Source: Oscillospiraceae bacterium (lineage in GTDB: Bacteria; Bacillota; Clostridia; Oscillospirales; Ruminococcaceae). Taken from it: a DNA stretch of 53,485 bases. A model generated the notes under the pieces. It was not told the origin of the DNA, searched no databases, and worked only from the letters and a program-made list of their open reading frames with translations. The DNA is taken from NCBI GenBank assembly GCA_009783205.1, contig WRHO01000011.1:1-53485 (forward strand). The letters are read 5' to 3'. Numbering within the stretch: the first letter of the stretch is position 1; each line of letters begins with the position of its first letter. The position numbers and the translations under genes were made by a program. Positions 9,586 to 45,765 of the stretch are shown in pieces.

Positions 9586-9639
9586 AAAAGTGATTCGATT
9601 TTTTATTAAACAGGAGCTGTAAATAGGAGGGGTTTGATT

Positions 9640-12600: not shown

Positions 12601-14181
12601 TCATTCGTCGGCTTCGACTTCGACAATGTATGGACTTATATTGACGGAGTGAATAACAATATGCCGGTACTGCAAGCGTTCGAGAAGATGTATAAGCCCA
12701 CACAAACTCAACAATACCCCACCCCCGACGGCTACAGCGATAACGACTATCAAAAGCTTGTGAAGTTTTTGATACAAGGTGATAACCCCATGAAATTGAA
12801 TTTTGACTTATCTGACCCCGATTCTTGGGAGGGATATAGTGACATGACGTATTTTGTTTGGAATGACGATTCACCGAGGTCAATAAAGCATATTAAAATA
12901 AAAGACATGGTAGGCGGCAAGCTTGACCTTTCCGATTTTGTTGCACTTGAGTCTATATACATTGATGTAACTTTTATTAACGATGTTGATGTTACAAACA
13001 CACCCTCGTTCAGAAGCTTTGATTTATGCTACAGCGAATTAACGGATTTATCAACGCTTGAAAGTTCAGAAAGCATTAAAAATGTATATGTACAAAATAA
13101 CTACCTTGATTTGTCCGACCCTGTAATAATCGCTTCAATTGCAAAAATACAGGCGATTGTTGATAAAAATGGAGGCGAGTTTATCTACACACCGCAACGC
13201 ACTCCACAACTATACCCCACCCCCGACGGCTACAGCGATAACGACTATCAAAAGCTTGTAGCGTTCGCGTTACAGGGGGATAATTTGGCAAAATTAGGCT
13301 GGGATTTGACAGACCCGGAGTCGTGGGGCGGCGTCATTTGGTGGGAATATGAACTACCTAAAAAAGCGTATCACGTATCGTTAGCAAGCGGATTAAGCGG
13401 AAATGCCGACTTTTCGGAATTTACGAGGCTTGGATATTTGTACATTGAAGACAGCAGCCTTACAAATATTGATGTTTCGGGGTGTGAATTACTTGTACGG
13501 GTTGATTTAGGCAACAATAATCTGACCGATATATCATCGTTTGAGAACGTAAACAGTCTCTTGTATTTAAACGTGAAATATAATCTCCTCGATTTGGATT
13601 CCCCCGATATTCAAGCGTCAATTGCTAAGATACAGGCGATAATTGATGAAAACGACCATGATGAAGGCGGCTTTTACTACACACCGCAAAACACACCGCC
13701 GCCTGTAACAACTACGCCGTCCACTTCTGACACTACGCCGCTCACAACCGATACCACGCCACCCACGACTGACACTACGCCGCTCACAACCGACACCACG
13801 TCACCCACGACCGACACCACGCCGCTCACAACCGACACTACACCGCTCACAACCGACACTACACCGCTCACAACCGACACCACGCCACCTAAGACTGACA
13901 CTACACCGCTCACATCCGACACTACGCCGCTCGAAACCACAACAGCAGTCCCGGGGCATAGAAAAGGCATTATCTCCACAGAAGGCATTGCCGCCGGAGA
14001 GCCGACCATATTCTGTTTTATTGAGATACTTCTTTACCTTGTGGGGTTAGAAAGCATGGCAACAGATAACCCCGACGCTGTATTAAGCGCGGAGGGTAAG
14101 AGAGAAGACGAACCCACAATTTTCTGCGGCATTGAGATTTTACAGTATCTCGTAGGAATAACCGACGGGAGCGAGTGGTGA
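9640..14181 (+). CDS. Secreted mosaic protein: WG repeats, GLUG repeats, LRR modules, Thr stalk, dockerin-like pair
   Basis: A 1513-residue exported protein with an N-terminal signal sequence (KKRILSLFIVFSMVTSFF). Domains in order: about ten WG beta-propeller-type repeats (about 180-590; recurring KYGVIDxxGE then VPxxYD); seven GLUG repeats (about 748-945; GGIVG, then NCYNTGDI); two duplicated modules (from 1026 and 1191), each opening with YPTPDGYSDNDYQKLV and ending in leucine-rich repeats; ten exact 7-residue DTTPxTT repeats (1364-1433) as a stalk; and two dockerin-like segments (about 1445-1512) each with EPTIFC then IEIL and YLVG. It has no LPXTG- or NPQTN-type sorting signal. WG and GLUG repeats are known from gut Firmicutes surface proteins; ligand unknown. 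The ATG at 9640 follows AGGAGGGG. Confidence 0.85.
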   Translation: MKKRILSLFIVFSMVTSFFPQKPTAVSPDSTVSSAPSTASDKYTVKTILEPSMRFDDVYFSYNSIPVVLAWSGDGWDLSLHNAKNGELLFDFSELDNYWYFDDARNNEEGFLGCIEKNDGGQYWLFTNGDESWVVSVDLQMIYDDNRDYPLGFRNGLTPVRKGNTWVEFEEYYEDGYWLDYKYGVANSTGELVVPFIYDYVGEYGYNDGLLQVQIGENWITDIYNGHDYGYYDSYKYGVIDTSGEIVVPIIYDYMFEFQDGIAAVAIGNDWSDYKWGFVDTSGKIIIPIEYDNIYFGAYSAVINNDVLAVEKDGKYGVIDLNNQVIIPFEYERLTWDYIKEYDDEHFISFQNGKLNGVLNKNNEIVFSIEVDSGVSFYNDDYAIVRKDGKYGVINRSYELIVPFEYDSIYSFSGDLAMVRKGDKYGFINKSGEVVVPLIYDSASPYFYGGHTSVRLNGKYGFINNKGDLVVPTIYTETRSFNEGLAAVSINGLWGFVDEDGEIAIPVTYYSVNSFSGGVAQVYVKSGTNISSHYIDKNGNTTTRNYDYKDSLSYYDDCDLYYSAIFNSSGYDCGIIDVNDNVIVPAVYKNIMYAGREDETYYIWVCENDLWGIISVTANPPTQTKVLPNFIAPIEIIDPTAPQYADWIPVSDRAGLKAIADNLDGNFYLTNDIDLDGEEWVPINNGEDEHNPFTGILDGQGYIIRNMAITKPYVYAGLFGYTDNATIKNVGLEGTNIKINNNRYVNAGGIVGYTHNSITISNCYNTGDIEVDSGYDVGAGGIVGEIWGNVNITDCYNTGNITGSSSDNTDAWTIVGGIVGDGYYSCGTISNCFNTGNITALEKDARAGGIAGLAMDINKCYNTGNINSDCCAGGICNDGEISDCYNAGNVTSLFVSGGIISYNENTRNCYNTGDLEVIENENDSFIGGISGYSHNGIINNCYWNSDSKQVLGGVHQNPKMGIGSQPDYSGDVDTTTPLTTAQMQQQSSFVGFDFDNVWTYIDGVNNNMPVLQAFEKMYKPTQTQQYPTPDGYSDNDYQKLVKFLIQGDNPMKLNFDLSDPDSWEGYSDMTYFVWNDDSPRSIKHIKIKDMVGGKLDLSDFVALESIYIDVTFINDVDVTNTPSFRSFDLCYSELTDLSTLESSESIKNVYVQNNYLDLSDPVIIASIAKIQAIVDKNGGEFIYTPQRTPQLYPTPDGYSDNDYQKLVAFALQGDNLAKLGWDLTDPESWGGVIWWEYELPKKAYHVSLASGLSGNADFSEFTRLGYLYIEDSSLTNIDVSGCELLVRVDLGNNNLTDISSFENVNSLLYLNVKYNLLDLDSPDIQASIAKIQAIIDENDHDEGGFYYTPQNTPPPVTTTPSTSDTTPLTTDTTPPTTDTTPLTTDTTSPTTDTTPLTTDTTPLTTDTTPLTTDTTPPKTDTTPLTSDTTPLETTTAVPGHRKGIISTEGIAAGEPTIFCFIEILLYLVGLESMATDNPDAVLSAEGKREDEPTIFCGIEILQYLVGITDGSEW
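12714..13259. repeat. 48-bp identical DNA repeat within the surface protein gene
   Basis: The 48 bases at 12714-12761 recur without a mismatch at 13212-13259, 498 bp apart in the same frame. They mark the start of each LRR module. The rest of the two modules has diverged at DNA level. Confidence 0.9.
13729..13938. repeat. 21-bp coding minisatellite (ten copies)
   Basis: Ten contiguous 21-bp units encode the DTTPxTT stalk of the surface protein. Third-base and Leu/Pro differences between copies show the array is older than a single expansion. Copy changes keep the frame. Confidence 0.9.
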
Positions 14182-25252: not shown

Positions 25253-26494
25253 CTATCTTACCTCAACACCTACATAGTAATACTTTAAAATATCAATGTA
25301 GTCATACCCCTCATGAGTTGCGAGAATATTCGCGCCGTTTTGTGATAATCCCGCACCGTGACCGTATCCGTTTGTTTTAAACGTAAACGAATCTTTGTTT
25401 TTATCGTACTCAAAGGTGAACGAGGCGGAGCGGAGTCCGAAGCCCATTATTCTTTCACGGAAAACCCGCCCCGTGATTTTTGTTTCGTTACCGTTATTCA
25501 TAAATGTCGTTTTACCGCCGATTGACATATCGTCTACATAAACCGTATCGGCGTGGTTGATAATCTTCAACCACGAGGACGGGTCGCCGGAGAGCTGTAT
25601 CCCCGTTTGGCGAAGCACATTGGTCATAATTTCGTTCGACGTAAATGTTACCGTTTGTCCCCAGTTCGGGTCGTGTTTTTCGTCAAAATCGCGTCTGCCC
25701 GCTTTAAGGTAGGGCATACTCGACCCCCAGACGGTTTGCGATGACGCCGACCAGCCCGCCGACGAAGCACAATATACCGCTTGAATCAGCTCGTTGTTAT
25801 AATAAACCGATTTTTCCCATACGTCCTTTGTACACTCCTTCACCCGTTCCGACGCATTTGCGGCAATCGGAAGAACGGGTGCGTTCCCCGCATTATTCTG
25901 ACGTTTTATATAAGTGTAAATAGCGACGGCTTGTGCTTTAATTGCTTCCTTGTGAAACGCACTCCCTATTTCGGCTTGTATAACCCGCGTAACTATATCA
26001 AAAGCGTCACCCTCAACCGTGCTTCCCCCCGAGGATATTTTAAATGTGCCGGTTGTGAGCGGGTCATTATCTAAAAGCGTTTCCAAATCGTTCTCCCCCG
26101 TAACGAGCGCGTTTTCACTCGGCACGGTTGCGGTAGGCGACGTTGCCGCAAAAGCTGTTGTCGGCGCGGCTATTGCATTACCGCTGTATTCGGTTACGGC
26201 GGCATCCGTTTGTGTAACAACGGCAGTTGTCTCGGGCAATTGTGACAAATCCGCGGGCAACACAACCGGGGCGTCATAGTTCTCAAAGCCGGGCATTTCC
26301 CCGTTTGCCACATTTAATTCCGACGGTTTATTTTCACCCGCCGCCGATTCGTCAACGGTCGAAGACGGTTCACTAATCGGGAGCCGACCGACGTCCGCCG
26401 TCAACTGTACATTGTCCATAATCGCAAATATATAGGTGTAAAGCGATATAATTGCTAAGGCAAAGGATATTTTTAAAAGTGATGTTTTTTTCAA
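25253..26494 (-). CDS. SpoIID/LytB-domain protein, membrane anchored
   Basis: A 413-residue protein with an N-terminal membrane anchor (about 7-26), a Thr/Ala/Pro-rich linker of about 140 residues, and a SpoIID domain. The family's catalytic Glu region is seen as VIQAEIGSAFHKEAIKAQAV and the C-terminal signature as GYGHGAGLSQNGANILA. SpoIID is a lytic transglycosylase that removes stemless glycan strands during engulfment, but the long linker and position suggest a dedicated paralogue. The ATG overlaps the end of the last sortase gene by four bases, so it is the final gene of the sortase operon. Confidence 0.9.
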   Translation of the reverse strand: MKKTSLLKISFALAIISLYTYIFAIMDNVQLTADVGRLPISEPSSTVDESAAGENKPSELNVANGEMPGFENYDAPVVLPADLSQLPETTAVVTQTDAAVTEYSGNAIAAPTTAFAATSPTATVPSENALVTGENDLETLLDNDPLTTGTFKISSGGSTVEGDAFDIVTRVIQAEIGSAFHKEAIKAQAVAIYTYIKRQNNAGNAPVLPIAANASERVKECTKDVWEKSVYYNNELIQAVYCASSAGWSASSQTVWGSSMPYLKAGRRDFDEKHDPNWGQTVTFTSNEIMTNVLRQTGIQLSGDPSSWLKIINHADTVYVDDMSIGGKTTFMNNGNETKITGRVFRERIMGFGLRSASFTFEYDKNKDSFTFKTNGYGHGAGLSQNGANILATHEGYDYIDILKYYYVGVEVR

Positions 26495-27654
26495 CTGAAC
26501 CCCGCCCTTTCGTCATACTCGCCGAGCCAAGCGCGGTCGAGTCCTTCAACCATAGAAATGTCCCATTGTCTTCCGCCCCACCCCATGTTTTTATTGTGCA
26601 TTTTGTAAAAAGCGTCGGACATTTTGTATTTCATAAACCCCGTTTCTGTTTTGCCGCCGTTTTCCCTATTGCTTATAAAGGCGTCGGTATCCATATCGGT
26701 GCTTTCCCCGGGGCGAATCCGTCGCGCAACTATTATTAGCCGCATTTTATCCAAAATAGTAAAGTCACAGGTAGAAAGGGTTAATATTTCATCTCCGTAT
26801 TTTAAATCTACGCCGGTATAATAATGGCTTCGGTCGAGCGATTCAACTACATATTCGTAAAAATCATCTTTTGTGGGGAAATATACCCTTCGCCAATAAT
26901 CGAAGAATTTTCCGTATATATCCGTTACGTGGGTTTGATAAACCGCGAAAATTTTATAGACGCCCGGTTCATAAAGTGTATCGAAATTAATTAAGGGGTG
27001 TTCCTTTAAAAAGGGAAACCCTTCCGTGGTCATACTGTCGCGATAATTCACCAACGGTTGAAACTTATTCTTACTCATCAAGTTATGACCGTGAATAATT
27101 GTGTTATGCGGGCGCGAGGTGGGTGTAAATTCGCCGAATTTGTCGGCGAAAATTGTACCGTTTTTTGTTTCCTCGCCGTTAAAATCGTGATTTAAATACC
27201 AGTCGTTCGATTTATCCCCCTGGCTTTGTACAACGGGATAATCAATAACCGAGTCAATTGATAAATACCCGACAAATTCGGAATTATCGTCGTAAAACTT
27301 TTTATACTTTTCGAGAATTTTAATCTCCTGTGAATTATTAGAAATATTTGAGCCGGTAATCGCAGTGCCGGGAATAGAAATTGTTATCATGTTGTCACAA
27401 TCGTTATCTACATCAAAATAACCCGAATTTAAATCCGCGTCATGATTCCCAAAATAAAAGTTTATAATCAAAACGACAGAAACGGTCAACGCCAATACCG
27501 ATACCAAAAAAACAACCTTCCGTATTTTATCCGACAAAGAGTCCCCGCTCCACGGGAAAAGCCCCGACGCTACAAATACAAGTATATTTTCTTTTTGCTT
27601 TTTTCTTCTTTTTTGCCCGTAAGTGTATTTTCTGCGGATATCTAATTCAGGCAT
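26491..27654 (-). CDS. Class B sortase 1
   Basis: A 387-residue class B sortase, fourth in transcription order. It has a basic cytoplasmic N-terminus (residues 1-45), one membrane helix (about 48-70) and the sortase fold. The catalytic His is in NTIIHGHNL, the Cys in LSTCDF and the Arg in LIIVARRIR. Class B sortases join an NPxTx-type substrate to peptidoglycan or polymerise pilins. It lacks the usual acidic insertion found in its sisters after LSTC. Couples to the SpoIID gene by a four-base overlap. Confidence 0.9.
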   Translation of the reverse strand: MPELDIRRKYTYGQKRRKKQKENILVFVASGLFPWSGDSLSDKIRKVVFLVSVLALTVSVVLIINFYFGNHDADLNSGYFDVDNDCDNMITISIPGTAITGSNISNNSQEIKILEKYKKFYDDNSEFVGYLSIDSVIDYPVVQSQGDKSNDWYLNHDFNGEETKNGTIFADKFGEFTPTSRPHNTIIHGHNLMSKNKFQPLVNYRDSMTTEGFPFLKEHPLINFDTLYEPGVYKIFAVYQTHVTDIYGKFFDYWRRVYFPTKDDFYEYVVESLDRSHYYTGVDLKYGDEILTLSTCDFTILDKMRLIIVARRIRPGESTDMDTDAFISNRENGGKTETGFMKYKMSDAFYKMHNKNMGWGGRQWDISMVEGLDRAWLGEYDERAGFS

Positions 27655-27667
27655 GGCGATTCACCTC

Positions 27668-28651
27668 CTATCGGTTTGTGTTCGCGCTTGTTTCTTTGTA
27701 TCCCTTTAAGTATTTTTTTGTGTTCCAAACCCGCCCGTTCCATGAATCCCCTATAACCTGTGATTCATATTTGAAACGAAGAACTCCGGTATTATGCTTT
27801 GCCTTTTCTAAGTCAACCTCTGCGCTCTCGCCCTCGCGAACCTTTCGCGCAAACACAACGCAGCGAGAATCTACATCTTCTCCGTAAGGATAAAGACAGG
27901 TTGAAAGCGTTGCGATTTTATCGCCGTATTCAATATCGACGTCTGTGAAAAGAACGCTTCTGTCCATTATTTTGAGAATATAATCGTAAAACTTATCCTC
28001 GTTTTTAAAGCCTATATAATCCCAATAACGGAAAACCTCTCCGTATTTTTCTTTAGTGTTCATTAAAACACAGGCGAATATTTTCCATTCTGCTTTTTCA
28101 TACATAGTATCAATATTAACAACGGGATACTTTTTATAATAACTCAAGGTTCCGTCTACGGTCGACCTGTAATAATTGCTCAATGCGGCAAAATAGGTGT
28201 TTTTTGCCGAGTTATGACCGTATATAAGGATATTGTCCGAGGTTTCGAGTCGATTGAATTTAACCCTATAATCTGCGGTTATACACGATTCGTATAAATC
28301 AACATTTCCGTCAAAATCGTGTAACATATAATAATCGTTGTCGTTACCTTGCATTATTGGGTAATTAATCCTTGTGTCGCCCAATCGAATCCAACCTACA
28401 ACATCGTTGTTCTTCTCCCACCACTCCAAATAATCCGGAAGCATTTTTGGCGGCTCGGTTACCGGCGGCTCCGTTTCGGGCGCGTCGGTTTCGAGTTCAA
28501 AGCGCGTTGCTTCGGGAGGCGGCGCGGGTTCCGGTTCGCTTTTTTTACAAGCCGTTAATGATATGCAAAATGCCGCGGCTAAAGTAAAAGCCGTTATTTT
28601 GCGTATATTCGCCAATATTCTGTCAAATTTAAAAATTATAAAATTCATCAA
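27668..28651 (-). CDS. Class B sortase 2 with lipobox
   Basis: A 327-residue class B sortase. The N-terminus has a hydrophobic helix ending in SLTACKK, a good lipobox, so the mature protein would start at a lipidated Cys (residue 34) followed by a Pro-rich spacer. The sortase triad is intact: NILIYGHNS, LSTCLYPYG, CVVFARKVR. Lipoprotein sortases are unusual; most are transmembrane. It overlaps the preceding gene by 23 bases. Confidence 0.88.
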   Translation of the reverse strand: MMNFIIFKFDRILANIRKITAFTLAAAFCISLTACKKSEPEPAPPPEATRFELETDAPETEPPVTEPPKMLPDYLEWWEKNNDVVGWIRLGDTRINYPIMQGNDNDYYMLHDFDGNVDLYESCITADYRVKFNRLETSDNILIYGHNSAKNTYFAALSNYYRSTVDGTLSYYKKYPVVNIDTMYEKAEWKIFACVLMNTKEKYGEVFRYWDYIGFKNEDKFYDYILKIMDRSVLFTDVDIEYGDKIATLSTCLYPYGEDVDSRCVVFARKVREGESAEVDLEKAKHNTGVLRFKYESQVIGDSWNGRVWNTKKYLKGYKETSANTNR

Positions 28652-29735
28652 ATCCCTTTACCTTTGAGGTGTCCCAGCTTCTTCCGCCCCATTCGCCCCC
28701 CTGTCTCGAATAATAAAGGTCAAAATATCGCGGCGACGGATTGACATATGCGGAGGATGTGTCAACCGAGGGGTCTTCGCCCTCTCTGACTCGTCGGGCA
28801 ATAACCACAACCCTGCTCTCTATATCTCTGCCGAACGGAAAAAAACAAGTTGAAAGGGTAAGAAGCTCGTCGCCGTATTCGATGTCTACGTCGGTATAAA
28901 AAACGCTCCTGTCCATTACGTCGCCTATATAATCATAAAACTCGCCCTTTGTATCGAAATATCGTCTTTGATAATAATTAAAAACCTCACCGTGTTCTTC
29001 GTTAATGTTCAAATACATAGTTGCGAATATTTTATATGTGCTTCTCTCTTTTTCATAGACGGTTGTAAAATCAATAGTGGGGTTATTATAATACGCCGCC
29101 GACAAATCCTTTCCGCCGGGTTCCGTGAAATAATTGACTAAATAAGCAAAGCCCGCGCCCGAACTCATATTGTGTCCGTATATAACGGCATTATCGGGGC
29201 GTTTTTTATTAACAATCGGTGTGTGCCAGTCGACGAAAAGCGAACCCAAATCGCTGTAGTTTCTGTCAAAGTCGCGTTTAAGGTAATAAGAATTTCCGGT
29301 ATACCCTAATGTATCCATATGGTCAAATTCATCCTCGAGGAATTGCATAACGGGATAGTCAACAACTGTATCGCCGATTTTTAACCACCCGACAAAATGA
29401 TTATTTCGCGCGTGCATTTCTTCCCAGTCGATGAGAACGGTTGCGTCTTCGTCCTCGTCCGACTCCATGTCGGGGAGCTCGGACGGCGCGGAAAGCTTTA
29501 CTATTGTATTAGGGAGCCATTCGCGTCCGGGGTCGGGAATGGGTTTATTCGCATTCGATATCAACACCGCGATAATTATAATCAAACAAATCGCAAGTAC
29601 GGAAACCGAAACCCAAAATATAATTTTGTTTATTTTGCCTATTTTTTTTATGTATACAGAAGAAGCGTTTTCCTCTGTATTCAACTCGTTATTTGCTTTT
29701 TTTGCATCAGGTCTGTTTTTAATATTATTACTCAT
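28629..29735 (-). CDS. Class B sortase 3
   Basis: A 368-residue class B sortase with a cytoplasmic stretch, one membrane helix (about residues 34-58), an acidic spacer (ESDEDED-type) and an intact catalytic triad (NAVIYGHNM, LSTCFFPFG, VVVIARRVR). The C-terminus (YYSRQGGEWGGRSWD) shares a W-G-G-R-x-W-D end motif with the sister sortases. Second in transcription order. Confidence 0.9.
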   Translation of the reverse strand: MSNNIKNRPDAKKANNELNTEENASSVYIKKIGKINKIIFWVSVSVLAICLIIIIAVLISNANKPIPDPGREWLPNTIVKLSAPSELPDMESDEDEDATVLIDWEEMHARNNHFVGWLKIGDTVVDYPVMQFLEDEFDHMDTLGYTGNSYYLKRDFDRNYSDLGSLFVDWHTPIVNKKRPDNAVIYGHNMSSGAGFAYLVNYFTEPGGKDLSAAYYNNPTIDFTTVYEKERSTYKIFATMYLNINEEHGEVFNYYQRRYFDTKGEFYDYIGDVMDRSVFYTDVDIEYGDELLTLSTCFFPFGRDIESRVVVIARRVREGEDPSVDTSSAYVNPSPRYFDLYYSRQGGEWGGRSWDTSKVKGFDEFYNF

Positions 29736-29758
29736 AAAAACACCTCGCCAAATATATT

Positions 29759-31378
29759 TCAGCCTTTATAACCTTTTAAATATTTCTCGGCGTCCCATAC
29801 CCGCCCGTTCCATACGTCGCCGTATATTTGCTTTTCCTTGTCGAACCTTAATACACCGGTGTTGTATTTCGCTTTGTCGAAGTCTACGTCTTTGCTTTCG
29901 CCGGGGCGAACCTTTCGCGCAAAGGTAACAACCCTTGTGTCAACGCCGGTCATAGGCCAGTAACAGGTAGACATGGTTAAAAGCTTATCGCCGTATTCCA
30001 AATCAACATCGGTGAAAAGAACGCTCCTGTCCATTACTTCGAGTATATAATCGTTAAATTCGTCCTCGTCCTCAAACTCGGTGACGTTCCAATATTGGAA
30101 AACGTCGCCAAATTCCTCCTGCGTATTGAACAAAACGCTCGCAAAAACCTTCCACTCGGCTTTTTCATAACGCGTATCAAAATTTATAATTGGGTGTTCC
30201 TTATAAAAGCTCAACGTGCTGTCTACCGTTTTCCTGTAATAATTACTGAGCGCGGCAAAATAATATCCCGTAGTTATGTTATGACCATACAGTATTGTGT
30301 TATCGGAAATGTCGAATCCGTCTAACTTATTTCTGAAGTCGGCGAATATCCACCCCCCCTTGCTCGGATTATGGTCAAAGTCGTAATCAAGATAATAATC
30401 GTTGTTATCGGTCTGAAGCACCGCATAATCAATTTTCGTATCCTTAATCTCTATATAACCCACAACGTCGTTGTTCTTTTCCCATAAAGCGTTGAAAAAA
30501 CGCGGCTCTCTGTTGAAGGGGTCTTCGCCTATATCTATTGTCATATCCTTATCCTTCTTAAGGTCGCTGTTAATCCTGTTAGCGCGCCATTCGTTGAACA
30601 TATCTACGCCTAAGGTTGACGCAAAGTATATAAAGCTTATCAGAGCGGCTGTAAAAATTAATTTGCGCGTGCTTTCTAACGCACCGTCCCCTTTAACCGG
30701 AACAAATGACGTTACCGCTCGTGTGAACGGGGAATTGCGTTTTCCGCGCGCATCGCCTATAGCCGGGTAGCTGATACAATAAACCATCGCCAAAAGCCCC
30801 GCCAATAAAGCCAAATACGTAAAAAGCGTCAATTCCAAAACGGTTACGCCCGCTTTTGCATTAATTGTGCTAATCGCATAAAAAAACACAATCGGGGTTG
30901 CCGCTCCCAAACCGAAGCCTAAAAACGCAAATGGGGCGCGGGCTTTACTTTTGCCGAAAACTATTGACAAAATTAACGCCGCTAAAGCGAGTATAAGCAT
31001 TATCAAAACTAAAATAAAGATTCCCTTAAACCCCGTAAACCACGCCTCAAACTCGGCTAATGACTCAAGCTGAAGCTCTGTCGGGGTTGACGTCATGGGC
31101 TGTACAATTTGGAATAACAGTTTGCTTAGCTCGTCTATTGATGTAACGAGGCTTAATTTATTAAAACTCAACGTCTCCTCAATACCGAGATTATCCGCTC
31201 CGATTTTTACCCAGTCCAACAACGATAAAACGGCAAGCGGTATCATACCCGCTAAAATAAGAAGGATTCTTGCACCGTTGTTCTTAGGTGTAATCCATTC
31301 AATATAAGCTATCGGGTTCTTATTGGATTCGCGGACTTTTCCTCTTGCGCGCGGGCGTTTATTGTAAGTTGATGTCAT
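29759..31378 (-). CDS. Class B sortase 4 with five-TM N-terminal module
   Basis: A 539-residue protein, first in the sortase operon. Five hydrophobic helices occupy about residues 35-265 (including ILLILAGMIPLAVLSLLDW and ILVLIMLILALAALILS), after which comes a class B sortase domain with intact triad (NTILYGHNI, LSTCxWP-type MSTCYWPM, VVTFARKVR). An odd number of helices from a cytoplasmic N-terminus places the sortase outside. Such multi-TM fusion is unusual; the membrane part could hold or feed the substrate. Confidence 0.88.
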   Translation of the reverse strand: MTSTYNKRPRARGKVRESNKNPIAYIEWITPKNNGARILLILAGMIPLAVLSLLDWVKIGADNLGIEETLSFNKLSLVTSIDELSKLLFQIVQPMTSTPTELQLESLAEFEAWFTGFKGIFILVLIMLILALAALILSIVFGKSKARAPFAFLGFGLGAATPIVFFYAISTINAKAGVTVLELTLFTYLALLAGLLAMVYCISYPAIGDARGKRNSPFTRAVTSFVPVKGDGALESTRKLIFTAALISFIYFASTLGVDMFNEWRANRINSDLKKDKDMTIDIGEDPFNREPRFFNALWEKNNDVVGYIEIKDTKIDYAVLQTDNNDYYLDYDFDHNPSKGGWIFADFRNKLDGFDISDNTILYGHNITTGYYFAALSNYYRKTVDSTLSFYKEHPIINFDTRYEKAEWKVFASVLFNTQEEFGDVFQYWNVTEFEDEDEFNDYILEVMDRSVLFTDVDLEYGDKLLTMSTCYWPMTGVDTRVVTFARKVRPGESKDVDFDKAKYNTGVLRFDKEKQIYGDVWNGRVWDAEKYLKGYKG

Positions 31379-31415: not shown

Positions 31416-31904
31416 TCAATCTTCCAACAATTTTAACAACATAATTAACGCATTTTGCACCGCTTTAAGCCTAACCTCGTCTCTTTTTCCCGAAAATGCA
31501 AAACGCTCGACCTTAAAAACTTTTCCGCTAAGGTCAATAGCTATATACACCGTTCCGACCGGCTTTTCGAGGGTTCCGCCGCTCGGCCCGGCTATCCCGG
31601 TAATTCCGACGCCTATATCCGCGCCCGCGCGTTTACGTATCCCCGCCGCCATAAGCGACGCCGTTTGCTCCGATACCGCGCCGTAAGCCGTCAATACCTC
31701 GTCGGTCACATCTGTGTATTCGATTTTTGCCCAATTTGCATAGGTGACGACGCTCATATCTATGATGCCCGACGCGCCGTTTATTTCGGTAATTGCCGCC
31801 GCCGCCATTCCTCCGGTGCAACTTTCCGCGAAGGAAATTTTGAGTTTTCGCTCTTTTAACAAATCCACTACATCTTGTGCAAAAGAATAATTTTTATCGG
31901 TCAT
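31416..31904 (-). CDS. pncC: Nicotinamide-nucleotide amidohydrolase (CinA C-terminal type)
   Basis: A 162-residue protein of the CinA C-terminal (PncC) family, which deamidates NMN to nicotinate mononucleotide. Family signature: SFAESCTGGMAAAAITEINGAS near residue 24, here quoted in part as AESCTGG, and GITGIAGPSGG near residue 103. The start at 31904 was chosen because AGGGGG lies nine bases upstream. It lies upstream of the sortase operon and downstream of thiI. Confidence 0.93.
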   Translation of the reverse strand: MTDKNYSFAQDVVDLLKERKLKISFAESCTGGMAAAAITEINGASGIIDMSVVTYANWAKIEYTDVTDEVLTAYGAVSEQTASLMAAGIRKRAGADIGVGITGIAGPSGGTLEKPVGTVYIAIDLSGKVFKVERFAFSGKRDEVRLKAVQNALIMLLKLLED

Positions 31905-31936
31905 ATAAGAAGTCCCCCTGTGTTTCGGAAAAAGTT

Positions 31937-33121
31937 TCAAAAATCTTTAATTTGTGCTTTATTCACGGCATTTGTAACCAATTTGTAATAATCAAAACGC
32001 GATTCAATATTCTCCACGTCCTTGAGCTTCGGATTTGTTTTCGGGTGTTTTGGCGTAAACACCGTGCAACAGTCTTCGTAAGGCAGAACAGATATATCAA
32101 ATGTGCCGATTTTACGCGCAATTGCTATTATTTCGGTTTTGTCCATTCCGATAAGCGGACGAAGCACGGGAAGTTCCGCCGCTGCGTCTGTACAGGCGAT
32201 TGCCGATAAGGTTTGACTCGCAACCTGTCCCAAACATTCTCCCGTTATTAACCCGCCATAGACATTGTTCCCGCGCTCCAGCTTTTGTCTGTAAAGCAAA
32301 TTCGCCGCCTTTATCATCATTCGCCTTAATACAACCGTTGAATACTCCTCGGGACAGTTATCGCGAATCGCCTCTTGTACCTCGGTAAATTCTACACAGT
32401 GTAGGCGGGTATTAATCAAATAGCTTTTTAAAGCCGCACACAACGACTCCACCTTCATTAATGCGCGTTCGGAGGTGTACGGCGGACTTTGAAAATGAAG
32501 CGCGTCGATACGCAAGCCGCGTTTTGCAATCATATACGCGGCAACGGGACTGTCGAGACCTCCGGACAACATTAAAAGCGACGCGCCGGAGCTTCCCACC
32601 GGAATACCGCCCGCACCCGTAATTCTCTCCGGGTTGAGGTATGCCGCCTTATCCCGAATTTCAAGTAATATCACGACCTCGGGATTGTGAACGTCGACCT
32701 TTAAATGCGGGAAGGCGTTTAAAATTTCCCCGCCTAACTCTTTTTGTATTTGGGGGGTATTCATAGGGAAGGTTTTATCCGACCGCTTTGCTTCGACTTT
32801 AAAGCTTTTGGCGTGATTAAGCGATTTTTCCAAATACGGCATACCGTCTTTTATAATTGCGTTAAAATCCTTAGGCAAAACTTTACATTTTTGAATAGCC
32901 GCCAACCCAAACACCTTTGACAATCGCGCAACCGTTTCATCTAAATCGACATTTCCTTTGCCTTTAGGTTCAATATATAGTGTTGACTGAATTCTGTCAT
33001 AATTAAACTCCCCCAAATCTGCGAGCGTCTTTTTTATATTTTTGATGAGAATATTTTCGAAAGTTCGTTTATTAAGTCCTTTTAAGGCGATTTCTCCATA
33101 TTTTGCCATTATTATTTCCAT
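31937..33121 (-). CDS. thiI: tRNA 4-thiouridine synthetase ThiI
   Basis: ThiI adenylates U8 of tRNA and transfers sulfur from a cysteine desulfurase. The 394-residue protein has an N-terminal ferredoxin-like/THUMP region and a PP-loop ATPase domain with SGGLDSPVAAY (about residue 185). There is no rhodanese domain after it, as in most Firmicutes. The start at 33121 overlaps the cysteine desulfurase stop by ten bases, with GGGGG seven bases upstream. Confidence 0.97.
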   Translation of the reverse strand: MEIIMAKYGEIALKGLNKRTFENILIKNIKKTLADLGEFNYDRIQSTLYIEPKGKGNVDLDETVARLSKVFGLAAIQKCKVLPKDFNAIIKDGMPYLEKSLNHAKSFKVEAKRSDKTFPMNTPQIQKELGGEILNAFPHLKVDVHNPEVVILLEIRDKAAYLNPERITGAGGIPVGSSGASLLMLSGGLDSPVAAYMIAKRGLRIDALHFQSPPYTSERALMKVESLCAALKSYLINTRLHCVEFTEVQEAIRDNCPEEYSTVVLRRMMIKAANLLYRQKLERGNNVYGGLITGECLGQVASQTLSAIACTDAAAELPVLRPLIGMDKTEIIAIARKIGTFDISVLPYEDCCTVFTPKHPKTNPKLKDVENIESRFDYYKLVTNAVNKAQIKDF

Positions 33122-34164
33122 CTTTTTACCCCCTTTTCCAATACATTTAGAAATGTATCAACCTCGTCGAGTGTATTCTGCCGCCCAAAGCTTATGCGTA
33201 TCGCCGTATCTATATCTTTATCGGGTATTCCGTAAGCGGGGAGGATTTTGCTTTTCTTCCCCTTTGAACAAGCCGAACCGCTCGAAACATATATATTGTG
33301 TTCCGCTAAAAAATGCAGCATTATTTCGCTCTTAACCCCGCACGAAAAATTTACTATATCGGGAACACATTCGGAAATACGGCCGTTAATCTTTAGATTC
33401 AAAATATTTAATCCGGAAATTAAACGGTCGCACAGAGGTTTTATATCGGGTTTTTCCGCAACGGTTGCATCTACCGCCGCCCCAAAAGCCGCTATTAAAG
33501 CGGTTGGCTCGGTTCCGGGACGAAGCCCCTTTTGCTGTCCCCCCCCGCGCAACATAGGGTTAAGCCTTATTCCGTCACCGACAAACAACCCGCCGACGCC
33601 CGTCAACCCGCCGATTTTGTGTGCCGAAACGCTGATTAAATCGGCATCGAGCGGCACATTCTTTAAAAAACCCTGTACCCCGTCAACATGAATTATACAG
33701 GCGGGGAACCTTTTCTTTATTTCGGCAAAAATTTGCTTTGTGTCAACTATAAACCCCGTTTCTCCGCAAACCGACGTAACGCTTACTAATGCGGTACTGT
33801 CATCAACCGCCTCGATTATTTGTGAAGGGAAAACGCGTACCGTATTATCTCCCGTCCCTATGACATTATCCACGCTCGGGTGTTCAATTGTTGTGGTTAC
33901 CGTTTTTGTTTTCCCGCGTTGTTTTACGGAATTGATAATCGCCATGTTGTTGCTCTCTGTCGCGCCCGATGTAAATATAAAGCTTCCGTTTTTCGGAAGT
34001 TCCTTGAGTATTGTTCCGCGAGCGGCGGTGATAACCTTCTCCGCTTCAATCCCGCCCTTATGAAGCGCGGCGGGATTTGAAAAATGTTCCTTTGCAATTT
34101 TATTGAAGGCTTCGAGCGTTTTTTTCAGCGGCATTGCCGAAGCCGCGTTATCAAAATAAATCAT
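33112..34164 (-). CDS. Cysteine desulfurase partner of ThiI (NifZ/NifS-type)
   Basis: A PLP-dependent desulfurase of about 350 residues that supplies persulfide sulfur. Visible motifs: MIYFDNAASA at the N-terminus, SGATESNN (PLP-phosphate loop), SVSAHKIGGLTGVGGLF (PLP Lys) and the active-site Cys in SSGSACSKGKK. The coupling to thiI by overlap matches the B. subtilis nifZ-thiI pair. An alternative ATG nine bases up is possible. A TATAAT lies just before the start, so the mRNA may be nearly leaderless. Confidence 0.95.
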   Translation of the reverse strand: MIYFDNAASAMPLKKTLEAFNKIAKEHFSNPAALHKGGIEAEKVITAARGTILKELPKNGSFIFTSGATESNNMAIINSVKQRGKTKTVTTTIEHPSVDNVIGTGDNTVRVFPSQIIEAVDDSTALVSVTSVCGETGFIVDTKQIFAEIKKRFPACIIHVDGVQGFLKNVPLDADLISVSAHKIGGLTGVGGLFVGDGIRLNPMLRGGGQQKGLRPGTEPTALIAAFGAAVDATVAEKPDIKPLCDRLISGLNILNLKINGRISECVPDIVNFSCGVKSEIMLHFLAEHNIYVSSGSACSKGKKSKILPAYGIPDKDIDTAIRISFGRQNTLDEVDTFLNVLEKGVKRWK

Positions 34165-34287
34165 AAATCCCATTATAACACTATAAAACAAAAAAATAAA
34201 GTATATTTGACAAAAAACGCGAAAAAATAAATATATAGAATTAGGGGAATGACTATATAGCCCCCTTAAAGAAAGGCAATTTTAAAT

Positions 34288-35646
34288 ATGTATAAATTTA
34301 TAAAAATGACAAAAAGGGGATTTATCCGCTTAATTTCCTTTTTATTAGTGACCGCCGTCGCTTTTGCGGTTATGTCGTGGGTCAATCATTCGCGCATAGT
34401 TCAGGCAAAAAGACACATCGAATACGGATATCTTCGTTCGCTCGAAAACCTGTCTCTAAGCATTGACAAAATAAAGAACAGCCTTAATAAGGGCATTTAT
34501 TCAAATTCACCACACACCCTTTATGACCTTTCGGGAAAAATGGCGAGCGATGCATCGAGCGCGAAAATGTCGCTTTCACAGCTTCCCGTTACCGAGCTTA
34601 ATCTCGATAAAACCAACCGTTTTCTGTCACAGGTCGGAAACTATTCAAACAGCCTTGCGCGTAAGTTTGCAAACGGTGAAGACCTCTCGACCGGCGATAG
34701 GGATAGTCTTTCTACGCTCTTAGAACACGCCGAATCGTTGTCTGACGAGTTGTACGGAATTGAAAATATGGTTGCGGGGGGACATCTTACCTTTGACGAG
34801 GTTGTAAAAAATTCAAATCTTGTCGGCGAAACGGGAGAAAGCTACCCCGGACACGTTTCGAGCGGGTTTGAAAACATGGAGAATCTATTTGAAGAATATC
34901 CTTCATTAGTCTATGACGGCCCGTTTTCCGACCATATAATGCAACAGGAGCCGCTTCTCATAAAAGGGAAAGAGGCGGTAAGCAAGGAGAAATCTCTCGA
35001 AACCGCAAAAACCGTATCCGGCTCTGATTCTCTTGAATATGCGAGCGACCAGGCGGGAAAAATACCGTCATACACCTATGCCGACGGTGATACAACCGTT
35101 TCGATTACGCAAGACGGCGGATTTTTTGTCTATATGCTTAAGTATCGGGAAATTGGCGAAAAGGCAATCAGCACAGACAGAGCCGTACAAATTGCCGAGG
35201 AATATCTTAAAAGCATAGGGTATACCGATATGACGCAAACCTATTACGCATTAAACGGAGGTGTTTGTACCGTTAATTTTGCGGGATTGTACGGGGACGT
35301 AACGGTTTATACAGACCTCATTAAAATAGAAATTGCATTAGACGACGGTGAGGTTATGGCGTTCGATGCGCGCGGCTTCATCACGGCGCACTATGACCGA
35401 CCGCTCGGAGACCCCGCCATTACCGAGGAACAGGCTATGGGCTTTTTAAGCGAGTCGCTCGATGTTCAAAACGCTAAATTGGCGGTTATCCCGTCGTCCG
35501 GTGAATATGAAATACTTTGCTATGAGTTTTCTTGTACGTCAAAAAATAGCGGTAATCAAGTTCTCGTTTATATAAACGCAGAATCGGGTTATGAAGAAAA
35601 AATCATGCTTATGCGAGTCGGCGACAACGGTACCGTGGTCGTATAA
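34288..35646 (+). CDS. ypeB: Germination protein YpeB
   Basis: YpeB is made in the forespore and is needed for correct deposition and activity of the germination lytic enzyme SleB. The 452-residue product has an N-terminal membrane anchor (about residues 13-30), a coiled helical region, and C-terminal PepSY-like repeats (AVQIAEEYLKSIGYTDM, then TEEQAMGFLSESL). No sleB lies beside it, unlike in Bacillus. Confidence 0.93.
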   Translation: MYKFIKMTKRGFIRLISFLLVTAVAFAVMSWVNHSRIVQAKRHIEYGYLRSLENLSLSIDKIKNSLNKGIYSNSPHTLYDLSGKMASDASSAKMSLSQLPVTELNLDKTNRFLSQVGNYSNSLARKFANGEDLSTGDRDSLSTLLEHAESLSDELYGIENMVAGGHLTFDEVVKNSNLVGETGESYPGHVSSGFENMENLFEEYPSLVYDGPFSDHIMQQEPLLIKGKEAVSKEKSLETAKTVSGSDSLEYASDQAGKIPSYTYADGDTTVSITQDGGFFVYMLKYREIGEKAISTDRAVQIAEEYLKSIGYTDMTQTYYALNGGVCTVNFAGLYGDVTVYTDLIKIEIALDDGEVMAFDARGFITAHYDRPLGDPAITEEQAMGFLSESLDVQNAKLAVIPSSGEYEILCYEFSCTSKNSGNQVLVYINAESGYEEKIMLMRVGDNGTVVV

Positions 35647-38907: not shown

Positions 38908-39975
38908 ATGAAGGATTTTATTTTTCTCGGCGGCGACCTCCGCTTTATATATGCCGCCGCCAAATTGAATAAAAAATATGAGTGTTTAATATACGGCTTC
39001 GACACGCTCGAGGACGATGTAAAGAAACAGACGGGGGTAGTTTTCCCCGCCGAGATAAAACGGTGTAAAAACGTCGTTTTGCCGCTTCCGATGAGCCAAA
39101 GCTGTGATTACATAACCGCGCCGTATAATTCCGAAAGGCTCCCTCTTTCTGCCGCAATCGACGCTTGTGACACGGGGGGAACCGTGTATTGCGGAAGAGC
39201 CTGTGCCGAATTACGGGATATGTGTCGCGAAAAATCAATTACTTTAATTGATTATTTTGAAAGGGAAGAGCTTATTGTTATGAACGCCGCAATTACGGCG
39301 GAGGGCGCGCTTGAAATCATAATGCGTGAAAACGCCCGTTCAATAATGAATATGCGGGTATTGGTAGCGGGTTACGGAAGAATAGCAAAGGTTTTATCGG
39401 GGTATTTACGCGCTCTCGGGGCAAATGTTACGGTTTGTGCGCGAAAATTCTCGGATTTAGCGTGGGCGAGAATTATGGGGTGTTCCGCGGTGCATATAAA
39501 CGACGTTGATAATTTTTTATGTGATTTTGATACGGTGGTAAACACCATTCCGTCACAAATTTTTAACAGAAGTAAATTGTTTAAATTAAACGAGGACTGT
39601 TTATTCTTAGACTTAGCGTCAAAAACGGGAGTTGAGGATTTAGAGCTTGCAAAAGAGGTAGGGGTGAAGGTGATATGGGCGTTATCCATTCCGTGCAATG
39701 TAAAAAACAGCAAATCGCGACTTTATACAAAGCCGCGATTGTTACTTTTCAACTATTTTCCTAACTATTCCTCGTTGTCGGCGGTGGTTGTCTCGTCGTT
39801 ATCGTCTCCTTCGTTGCCCGCGTCATCATCGTCCGCATCTTCCTCATCGTCTTCATTTTCGTCTTTATCGTCGGAATCATCGGCATCATCGTCATCATTA
39901 TCATTTCCGAGATATACCGCATTTTCAACAATCAAGTTTAATACCATATCTTGCATAACGAGTTGCTTTAAATAA
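38908..39975 (+). pseudogene. dpaA: Dipicolinate synthase subunit A, 3' end apparently lost
   Basis: DpaA with DpaB makes dipicolinic acid in the sporulating mother cell. The N-terminal and Rossmann parts are well preserved (RVLVAGYGRIAKVLSGYLRA, near residue 150). Homology ends at ALSIPCNV (about residue 265); the normal GKVAPxTAGxII segment is missing. The frame then runs through a terminator hairpin and antisense to the trigger-factor gene, giving a Ser-rich tail that is unlikely to be real. No dpaB follows. The reading frame is intact over 262 residues, so partial function cannot be excluded. Confidence 0.7.
39713..39740. terminator. Terminator between dpaA and the trigger-factor-like gene
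   Basis: AATCGCG (39713-39719) and CGCGATT (39734-39740), with inner CTTT/AAAG pairs. On the minus strand the stem is followed by a T-rich run. Confidence 0.75.
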
Positions 39976-42623: not shown

Positions 42624-44237
42624 CTACAAAGTCGGCAGTTTCCCTATGAACCGATAGTGAATTTGAATATCCTGTTGCCGATTTCCTTTTCGGCGGTCTC
42701 CCGTTGCCTCGAAAACAACGATTTTGTCGATTAAGTCAAGAATTTTCTCACGAGTCAACTCTTCCGAAACCGTATGCTTTTCCAACTGTTCCAAGAACAA
42801 TCGAGCATTTTCTTTGTCGTTGTTTTCGGCGGCGAGTTTCGTTTCAAGCTCCTGCATTTTGTCCGCTACTTCATTCTGCTCGGTAATGTAGCCGCTATAA
42901 AGTTTCGTGAAAGTTTCTGCTGTGATTTCGCCGAGTGCGTTCTGCTCCACGATTTTACGAATAATGTGGTCAAGTTCATCGTTCCGCTTTTTCAGCTTTG
43001 CTAAAGCCTTTTGTGCGATTTTCAAGGGTTCACGGTCAGACGATACTTGCCGTATAATTTCCTCTTGCGTTATGTTCGCAGACAAAACCGCATTCAGTCG
43101 AGCAAGAGTAGTTTCGTAAACATTGATGTAGGGAGTGTAGTGAGCGGTGCAGGTTTTCCGTTCAATTTCTGATGTACTGCAATGGCGATATTTGTTGCAT
43201 AAATATTGCCCGCTCTTGTGTCCAGAATTGCCGTTGTAGGCTCTGAAGGTCATGTTGCTTTGACAGTCCGCACATTTCAAAACGCCTGCAAAAATATTTG
43301 TGATGCCTTTGGAGTTCGCTTTTTTCTTGAGCTTAATCAGTTTTTGCACTCTGTCGAAAACATCACGTTCCACAAGAGCCTCGTGTGTCCCCTCAACCGT
43401 TATCCATTCTGACTCGGGGTGGCTTATTAGCTTTTGGTTTTTGAACGACTTGTTGCCGCACTTGTGACTAACCATATCGCCGATATACACACGATTTTCA
43501 AGGATTCTGCGAACCGTTGAGGTTCGCCAGTCGTAGGGATAATTTTCGTCAAACTGGTTCGATTTGTACCCCAACATATTGTATTTGTACATTGTCGGAA
43601 TTAAAATTCTGTCATCAGAAACAATACGAGCAATCTGCTGTGTTCCGTGACCGTTATCCGCTAACCCGAACATTCTGCGAACAACTGCGGCTGACTCAGG
43701 GTCGGGGATTAGTTTGTGTTTATCATCGGGACTTTTCACGTATCCGTAAGGAGCGTGAGCCCCGCCGAATTCCCCCTTTAATGCTTGGTTTTGCTTGACT
43801 GCACGTATCTTTCTTGAAATGTCGCGTGCGTAATATTCGTTGATTAAGGACTTAAAAGCCATGATTTCATTGTCACCTTGACCAGTGTCGATACTGTCTC
43901 CCAAAGCGATGAGCCGCACGTCATGGTCGGGCAGAAAAATCTCTGTGTAAAACGCAATTAAAGCGTTATTACGCCCGAGTCGAGAAAGGTCTTTTATAAG
44001 CAAAACTCCGATGCTACCTGCCTCAATATCCTCAACCATTTTCTTTAGCGAAGGTCTCTCAAAATTTGTACCCGAATACCCATCGTCGACGTACTCGTTT
44101 TTGACTATAAAGCCCTTTTCAACAGCGTATCTGTTCAAGATTTCCCGTTGATTACTTATACTGTTAGATTCGGCATCACCTCCATCGTCTTTCGACAATC
44201 TAAGGTATAATGCCACCGTAATATCCCGCTGTTTCAC
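42624..44237 (-). CDS. Large serine recombinase (Tn4451 TnpX-like)
   Basis: A 537-residue large serine recombinase with an intact N-terminal resolvase domain: VALYLRLSKDDGG (nucleophile Ser at about residue 14), DGYSGTNFERPSLKKM and the KDLSRLGRNN segment. A recombinase domain, zinc ribbon (CADCQSNMTF, then CNKYRHCSTSE) and coiled coil follow. Such enzymes excise and insert integrative elements. It is followed by the truncated paralogue and preceded by a TnpW-like gene. Confidence 0.93.
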   Translation of the reverse strand: MKQRDITVALYLRLSKDDGGDAESNSISNQREILNRYAVEKGFIVKNEYVDDGYSGTNFERPSLKKMVEDIEAGSIGVLLIKDLSRLGRNNALIAFYTEIFLPDHDVRLIALGDSIDTGQGDNEIMAFKSLINEYYARDISRKIRAVKQNQALKGEFGGAHAPYGYVKSPDDKHKLIPDPESAAVVRRMFGLADNGHGTQQIARIVSDDRILIPTMYKYNMLGYKSNQFDENYPYDWRTSTVRRILENRVYIGDMVSHKCGNKSFKNQKLISHPESEWITVEGTHEALVERDVFDRVQKLIKLKKKANSKGITNIFAGVLKCADCQSNMTFRAYNGNSGHKSGQYLCNKYRHCSTSEIERKTCTAHYTPYINVYETTLARLNAVLSANITQEEIIRQVSSDREPLKIAQKALAKLKKRNDELDHIIRKIVEQNALGEITAETFTKLYSGYITEQNEVADKMQELETKLAAENNDKENARLFLEQLEKHTVSEELTREKILDLIDKIVVFEATGDRRKGNRQQDIQIHYRFIGKLPTL

Positions 44238-45069: not shown

Positions 45070-45765
45070 CTTGAGCAGATGCTCGAAACCTATCAGAACG
45101 ACGGGGATATCCACGCACTCACGACTGCGGTCATCTACAAAATATCACTCGAAGAGGCTATGGAAGAATCGCACCCATTGTACAAAGAGCGGCGTTCCAT
45201 TGCCAAGAATTGTAATTTCGGAGTTTTCTTCGGATTGTTTCCTCGTGGATTGCAGAAAACTCTGCGATTCAAAGCGGGTTTGAAAGTCGAACTTGACGAG
45301 TGTGAAAAAATCATTAACAACATCAAAATGGGATACCCCCGACTGTCTCGTTGGCAAGACGAGGTCAAGAAACGTGCGGGATTCCGTGCGTACACCGAAA
45401 CGTGGCTCGGTCGCAGACGGGCGATTCCCGAAATCCGCTCTGCCACATGGAACGTGAAGGCTTTCGCCGAGCGGGTTGCGATGAACACGCCGATTCAAGG
45501 GACTGCCGCCGATATACTCAAACTCGCCCTCGGCAGAATAATAAATGGACTTCCCGAACGACCGTGGTTGAAACCCTTACTTCAAATACATGATGAATTA
45601 GTCTTTGAAATACCCGAAAATAAGGTGCAAAACGCCTTGATTTTCGTTAAAAATTGCATGGAAACACAGCCTTTTGAGGCATTTTCTGTTCCAATTATCG
45701 CCCAAGCCGAAGTCGGGAGACGTTTCGGCGAGTTGAAAGGGGTGAGAGCAGAAAATGTCGAATAA
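45070..45765 (+). pseudogene. Family A DNA polymerase fragment
   Basis: The last third of a phage-type DNA polymerase I. Motif B is present (RRSIAKNCNFGVFFG) as is motif C (LLQIHDELVFEIP), but the frame is closed by a TAA at 45067-45069 just before EQMLETYQNDGDIHA, so motif A (the DYSQIELR block) and everything before are missing. The fragment has 228 residues from the ATG at 45079. It overlaps the downstream primase by 11 bases, the relic of a polymerase-primase operon. Confidence 0.85.

Follow-up and report, generated by a model that had tools for sequence, protein, structure and literature searches.

Where class B sortases are described in the available sections of PMC3297441 and PMC4591827, they are encoded by single genes. 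The SrtB enzymes of Staphylococcus aureus and Bacillus anthracis, with the signals NPQTN and NPKTG, respectively, belong to isd haem-uptake clusters, and that of S. aureus has a single substrate (PMC3297441, available part). Clostridioides difficile has one conserved sortase gene, encoding a class B-type SrtB with an (S/P)PxTG motif. Seven substrates are predicted for it, one of which has been shown to be cut between T and G and linked to diaminopimelate; a proposal has been made that class B sortases work on assembled peptidoglycan, and neither a tandem array nor a SpoIID neighbour is mentioned in the available part of that report (PMC4591827). Here, we describe a row of four class B sortase genes followed by a SpoIID-domain gene in an Oscillospiraceae bacterium (hereafter the host), on contig WRHO01000011.1 of assembly GCA_009783205.1, whose 53,485 nucleotides are together called the window.

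The array resembles the S. aureus and B. anthracis systems in enzyme family, in the catalytic His, Cys and Arg and in N-P-x-T signals, and it shares with C. difficile a class B-type sortase. It differs from the former two in having two to four sortase copies, many candidate substrates in trans and 54 extra profile positions, and, unlike the isd srtB clusters, its operon holds no haem-uptake domain. An Isd-type haem locus was rejected, as Pfam found no haem-uptake or substrate domains in the five operon proteins or in 14 other window proteins. Judged by titles and the starts of abstracts, no publication on a tandem class B sortase array was found; nor was one found that joins a class B sortase with SpoIID, class B sortases with Ruminococcus, or SleB and YpeB with a sortase, or that deals with a sortase with an NPDTG signal. 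We consider it fairly probable that the locus is an in-place expansion of SrtB that supplies the general N-x-x-T-G/N-anchoring sortases of its genus, with a SpoIID-like glycan partner.

Four class B sortases and a SpoIID-domain protein in one row

At 25253-31378, the window ORF list shows four sortase open reading frames (ORFs) and one SpoIID-domain ORF, all encoded head to tail by the minus strand (aa, amino acids; TM, transmembrane):

29759..31378, minus strand: Srt4, class B sortase, 539 aa; adjoins CinA; five TM-like segments; H366, C472, R482
28629..29735, minus strand: Srt3, class B sortase, 368 aa; one TM anchor; "middle" paralogue group
27668..28651, minus strand: Srt2, class B sortase, 327 aa; lipobox LTAC; clusters with the CinA-adjacent paralogues and a lone SrtB on host contig C5
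26491..27654, minus strand: Srt1, class B sortase, 387 aa; one TM; SpoIID-adjacent paralogue group
25253..26494, minus strand: SpoIID/LytB-domain protein, 413 aa; starts with a TTG that overlaps the stop of Srt1; in the alignment, E175 falls on the glutamate of solved SpoIID proteins

Read along the coding strand, 37 bases separate CinA from Srt4 and 23 bases separate Srt4 from Srt3; Srt3 and Srt2 have 23 bases in common (or 20, should Srt2 start at its second codon, an ATG), a gap of 13 bases holding GGAGG lies between Srt2 and Srt1, and Srt1 and the SpoIID gene overlap by four bases (TTGA). An earlier, sequence-only reading had described four sortases with intact His, Cys and Arg running in one direction with a SpoIID gene, and the ORFs, the Pfam and NCBIfam matches and the alignment bear this out. 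Its spacings need to be reassigned in part: the 23 bases are right as the gap between Srt4 and Srt3 but not between Srt3 and Srt2, which overlap, and the four bases at the Srt1-SpoIID junction are an overlap. A scan gave 36 promoter-like sites (21.1 expected, standard deviation 5.5), which were scattered over both strands, and 15 terminator-like sites (13.5 expected), from which nothing is concluded.

All four sortases match Pfam Sortase (E 9e-10 to 5e-8). Their best NCBIfam model is TIGR03064, the class B sortase, with scores of 94-145 bits that lie below the equivalog cut-off of 153.75, so that the class B assignment depends in addition on structural relatives: the best PDB matches of the sortase profile are NPQTN-specific SrtB structures (E 5.7e-37), the S. 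aureus enzyme being the best solved relative. The catalytic His, Cys and Arg are present in all four and in each of the 95 genus sortases that were aligned (94 from arrays plus the lone one; sortase ORFs below 300 aa or 100 bits, such as a partial copy in L043 and a weakly matching ORF in L048, were dropped before alignment and tree building). Catalytic residues, best model and structure match, and NPQTN-like signals in the genome thus agree with the class B family, and the array sortases are predicted to be, probably, transpeptidases of NPQTN-like signals. Their C-terminal tail is distinctive. The match to solved SrtBs ends near position 315 of the 369 profile positions, a Trp near the C-terminus is found in 95/95 genus rows, and the motif W-x-G-R-x-W is found in 64 of these 95 rows versus none of 21 outgroup rows.

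Conservation of the array within the genus

A search with the SpoIID protein matched 50 of 60 relatives, and genus genomes usually carry a long SpoIID copy plus a shorter one. Thirty loci were taken around long copies, namely the 29 array loci L040-L068 and L069, and nine further genus loci were added; the counts below refer to 40 genus genomes. At least two such sortases stand together in 37 of them. One of the three others has a contig that starts inside the array (G017), and in the remaining two (G003 and G030) CinA was not found either. The SpoIID gene directly follows the array in 33/40 genomes; in five of the other seven the contig ends (G007, G012, G016, G024 and G061), and in G003 and G030 the segment is missing. 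In G152, a genus genome beyond the 40, three sortase matches adjoin one another. The recurrence of the array across the genus shows that it is no chance arrangement. The sequence-only reading had let its case depend on such gene-order conservation, and an absence of co-conservation was not observed.

The genes upstream of the array in the window are conserved neighbours as well:

31416..31940, minus strand: CinA C-terminal (PncC) domain protein; in some relatives fused to SrtB
31937..33121, minus strand: a putative ThiI-like gene
33112..34191, minus strand: presumably a NifS/IscS-like cysteine desulfurase
34288..35646, plus strand: YpeB (sporulation/germination family), divergent neighbour of the gene string

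L043, whose stretch begins inside the array, is the only one of L040-L068 without CinA upstream, and L056 and L058 lack a ThiI call. A divergent YpeB flanks the string in 22 of 30 loci (the window and L040-L068), and in five of the eight loci without a YpeB call the stretch stops before its place. Three arrays have a HAD-type gene between sortases (one of them checked in Pfam), and in one species a beta-lactamase-family (PF13354) lipoprotein-like gene takes such a position (L041:8519-9511). Some genes lying under antisense ORFs, which the ORF picker missed, were recovered (SpoIID in L044 and L053, one sortase each in L066 and L067). At L069 (contig C3 of G019), a second long SpoIID copy has no intact sortase beside it; a neighbouring 148-aa ORF, which scores very weakly as a sortase (15), is perhaps the remnant of a duplicated array.

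Origin by duplication in place

A midpoint-rooted tree of 92 sortases was built, from which three rows of L053 had been removed as near-copies of L054. In this tree, 27 of the 28 SpoIID-adjacent rows form one group (support 100/99); the exception, L066, is probably mislabelled, since its true last copy is hidden by an antisense ORF. A 39-row group contains all 28 CinA-adjacent rows (support 100/99), and the position labels change nine times on the tree, compared to 43.9 times in shuffles. There are, hence, three position-specific paralogue groups (SpoIID-adjacent, middle and CinA-adjacent) plus later local duplications, and Srt2 of the window and the lone sortase on C5 derive from the CinA-adjacent side. 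A second tree combined 46 genus rows (45 from arrays and the lone one) with 21 outgroup sortases; there, a branch separates the two sets in 91% of bootstrap trees (support 86/88).

The sortase profile matched 105 of 147 genomes of the order, five of them genus members. Among 20 high-scoring outgroup loci, chosen by hand from the order-level matches outside the genus, the sortase lies beside or is fused to ThiI/CinA in 17 and is the only one in the stretch in 19. SpoIID follows SrtB directly or one gene later in seven of the 20, and the pair also occurs in L236, which comes from another family. With a single sortase and the same gene string in nearly all of these loci, the row is best read as an in-place expansion. 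Tree and synteny thus support duplication in place, and on the simplest reading the single SrtB of a NifS-ThiI-CinA-SrtB string that is conserved in the order would have expanded in tandem long ago, in one genus.

Candidate substrates are encoded in trans

The sequence-only reading had seen no NPxTx or LPxTG protein in the window, and a crude signal filter agrees: of the window ORFs that had been picked, none encodes a convincing N-x-x-T-G protein. The genome-wide check for sorting signals that it had proposed showed that signal-bearing proteins are encoded elsewhere in the host genome. Five carry NPxT[GN] signals, reading NPRTG, NPKTG (three proteins) and NPRTN:

Host contig C5: NPRTG protein, 162 aa
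Host contig C1: NPKTG protein, 453 aa
Host contig C5: NPKTG protein, 472 aa
Host contig C2, L129:2438-11437: NPRTN protein, 2999 aa, with eight FctA stretches and a cysteine-pair (zinc-ribbon-like) N-terminus
Host contig C2: NPKTG protein, 618 aa, WG-repeat, with a longer tail after the signal

Another part of contig C1 (L130, 191500-197500) encodes a row of small secreted-looking proteins with signal-like C-termini reading VPRGG or TPLNTG.

The srtB_target model TIGR03063 gave nothing over its cut-off in the host genome, and PF00746 was over its cut-off in just 16 of the 40 genus genomes. A signal profile built from 13 signals gave more matches than either: it matched in 40/40 genomes, with 2-24 matches each at E<=0.5, some of them surely by chance. 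Of the 51 distinct tails that passed an N..T[GN] filter, 42 read NP. In five genomes (G014, which is one contig, G009, G018, G031 and G060), the array accounts for all PF04203 matches at E<=0.01. These genomes are 96-99% complete, and their signals are many; in G014, eight of ten examined signal loci end in N..TG followed by a hydrophobic stretch and a basic tail (three NP, four NT and one NV). Since the only sortases detected in these five genomes lie in the array while the signals are many, the array is probably the general anchoring system of the genus; these genomes provide the chief reason for assigning the signals to the array.

A SpoIID-like protein as candidate glycan partner

The window SpoIID protein resembles SpoIID/LytB peptidoglycan enzymes in its domain (PF08486 and TIGR02669, both above cut-off), in its solved homologues (5i1t, 5txu and 4rwr) and in the conserved glutamate region, E175 being kept in 33 of 34 aligned SpoIID rows. 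Among solved proteins, its nearest match is SpoIID. Unlike those enzymes, it begins with a TM-like segment that may serve as an anchor, followed by a long low-complexity linker. It reaches 127 bits on the sporulation equivalog TIGR02870, below the cut-off of 234.75, and the host has a second SpoIID (contig C25) that fits this model better, at 211 bits, yet is also under the cut-off. In two of three loci of a sister genus (g26), a PF07486 cell wall hydrolase gene, which we take to be of the SleB/CwlJ family, lies between SrtB and SpoIID (L223:5127-6035 and L228:7994-9025).

The link between the sortases and SpoIID is one of conserved synteny with a retained glutamate, from which we infer that they may remodel the wall jointly. 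By analogy, the diaminopimelate linkage made by the C. difficile enzyme and the proposed use of assembled peptidoglycan would make a glycan-cutting, wall-opening partner sensible.

Proposed role of the array and alternative explanations

In the explanation that we favour, the array paralogues would cleave C-terminal signals of the type N-x-x-T-G/N, NPxTG in most cases, on surface proteins whose genes are scattered over the genome, and would attach the cleaved proteins to peptidoglycan stem peptides. As the paralogues have unlike membrane anchors (five TM-like segments in Srt4, a lipobox in Srt2 and a single TM in each of Srt3 and Srt1) and carry an added C-terminal tail, they probably share this work by substrate or by place. 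The SpoIID-like enzyme would probably cut or trim glycan strands near the membrane, which could let anchored proteins be received into the assembled wall or be exposed by it. The genus, whose gene content is that of spore formers, would then appear to base its protein anchoring on two to four diverged class B enzymes. The array is a natural set for asking how sortase paralogues split substrates, it raises the question of whether a SpoIID-type glycan enzyme readies the wall for attachment, and the signal set offers a route to listing the anchored surface proteins of these bacteria.

Several points weigh against this explanation, beginning with the TIGR03064 scores under the cut-off. The signal profile derives from the same genus and is not independent, and most of the signals examined in G014 are NT or NV rather than NP. 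In G030, which is 99% complete in 30 contigs, the signal profile matches 24 times, and ten of ten examined loci carry a real-looking xPxTG, but profile searches found no sortase match and no long SpoIID there; since CinA was likewise not found, the array segment is likely missing from this assembly, either lost or unassembled. The host has six sortases, and the two outside the array (the lone SrtB on C5 and a pilus-type enzyme on C1) make the pairing of sortases with substrates ambiguous. The AlphaFold model of Srt1 (eight rows) has a mean predicted local distance difference test (pLDDT) score of 55, with the C-terminal tail not resolved. Finally, NifS, ThiI and CinA are housekeeping-like and equally conserved, and synteny alone is no proof of cooperation between SpoIID and the sortases.

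This last point leads to the alternative that survives best, although we hold it to be rather unlikely: the sortases and SpoIID would be adjacent only because this chromosome segment seldom rearranges, with no functional link between them. It would account for the conservation of NifS, ThiI and CinA, which have no evident tie to the wall, and for the presence of SpoIID after SrtB in just 7/20 outgroup loci. It sits less well with the four-base overlap of Srt1 and SpoIID in the window, with the place of SpoIID directly after the array in 33/40 genomes, even where a HAD-type or beta-lactamase-family gene interrupts the array, and with the SrtB-SpoIID pair of another family in L236.

A spore or septal envelope module is less probable still, and we regard it as unlikely. 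Here, the sortases, SpoIID, YpeB and the SleB-type hydrolase would together have the peptidoglycan of forespore or cortex as their target, and the proteins attached would belong to the spore stage. By its gene content (YpeB, Spo0A and a dipicolinate synthase A-type gene), the host appears to be a spore former, and Spo0A is present in 38 of the 40 genus genomes. The divergent YpeB in 22/30 loci, the PF07486 genes of the two g26 loci and the DpaA-type gene of the window all speak for this alternative, and a Bacillus sporulation sortase that anchors LPNTA proteins is described in the available part of PMC3297441. On the other side, the second host SpoIID is nearer to the sporulation model, the candidate substrates include the FctA-repeat giant and the WG-repeat protein, the window YpeB lies on the opposite strand and points away from the array, and deletion of srtB in C. 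difficile had no significant effect on the sporulation rate (PMC4591827, available part). The sequence-only reading had suggested wall remodelling, perhaps in the spore or septal envelope. A remodelling setting is plausible because of the Spo0A and YpeB counts and the PF07486 genes; the spore or septal role was not borne out, in view of the second SpoIID and the C. difficile deletion. A spore-specific sortase operon was, hence, set aside as the leading explanation because of the second SpoIID and the surface-type substrates, and it stays as a rival. The dipicolinate synthase A-type gene lies near the array at 38908-39975.

That the array would polymerise a pilin such as the 2999-residue protein, as in the known pilus islands with several class C sortases in a row, is very improbable: the eight FctA stretches of that protein favour it, but the array sortases are of class B, Pfam finds no pilin family in the five operon proteins, the signal filter finds no convincing signal protein beside the arrays of the window and L040-L069 (neighbours not Pfam-scanned), the signals sit on many dissimilar proteins, and a separate pilus-type locus on C1 has LPGTG pilin-domain proteins and its own sortase. 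A pilus island was, therefore, rejected as the leading explanation, given the lack of pilin genes in the cluster and the separate locus. One LPETV ORF near the array of L051 is doubtful. The pilus-type locus itself (L070, host contig C1, 26000-42000) encodes LPGTG and LPETG proteins, a sortase and a putative signal peptidase-like protein.

Fusions of CinA with sortases in outgroup loci

Five of the 20 outgroup loci have SrtB joined in frame to CinA or its PncC domain in a single ORF, laid out as CinA, one TM-like segment and sortase:

L225:6425-9544: CinA-SrtB; full CinA 533 bits against a cut-off of 379; TIGR03064 over cut-off
L237:1618-3852: CinA-SrtB; full CinA 398 bits against a cut-off of 379; TIGR03064 over cut-off
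L222:6116-7924: PncC-SrtB; PncC domain over cut-off; TIGR03064 167 (over)
L236:6202-8925: PncC-SrtB; PncC domain over cut-off; TIGR03064 118 (under)
L219:6159-9602: CinA-SrtB; CinA part weak

No uninterrupted fusion was found among the matches listed for a class sample of 392 genomes, and the five fusion genomes are not among the genomes listed. Two rows of that sample span both domains and contain stops, so that CinA and sortase are there neighbours rather than fusions. No publication about a CinA-sortase fusion was found, judged by titles and the starts of abstracts. The fusions allow a speculation that we consider doubtful, namely that the SrtB of the order is tied to CinA, a pyridine-nucleotide recycling enzyme, as a membrane device in which the status of the nicotinamide adenine dinucleotide (NAD) cycle would control surface-protein anchoring; one genus would then have expanded the sortase half and paired it with a glycan-cutter.

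Other features of the window

A 1515-residue WG-repeat protein with a weak leucine-rich-repeat match is encoded at 9634-14181. A serine recombinase (42624-44237) and a D5-type primase/helicase-like protein (45755-48292) may mark a mobile element.

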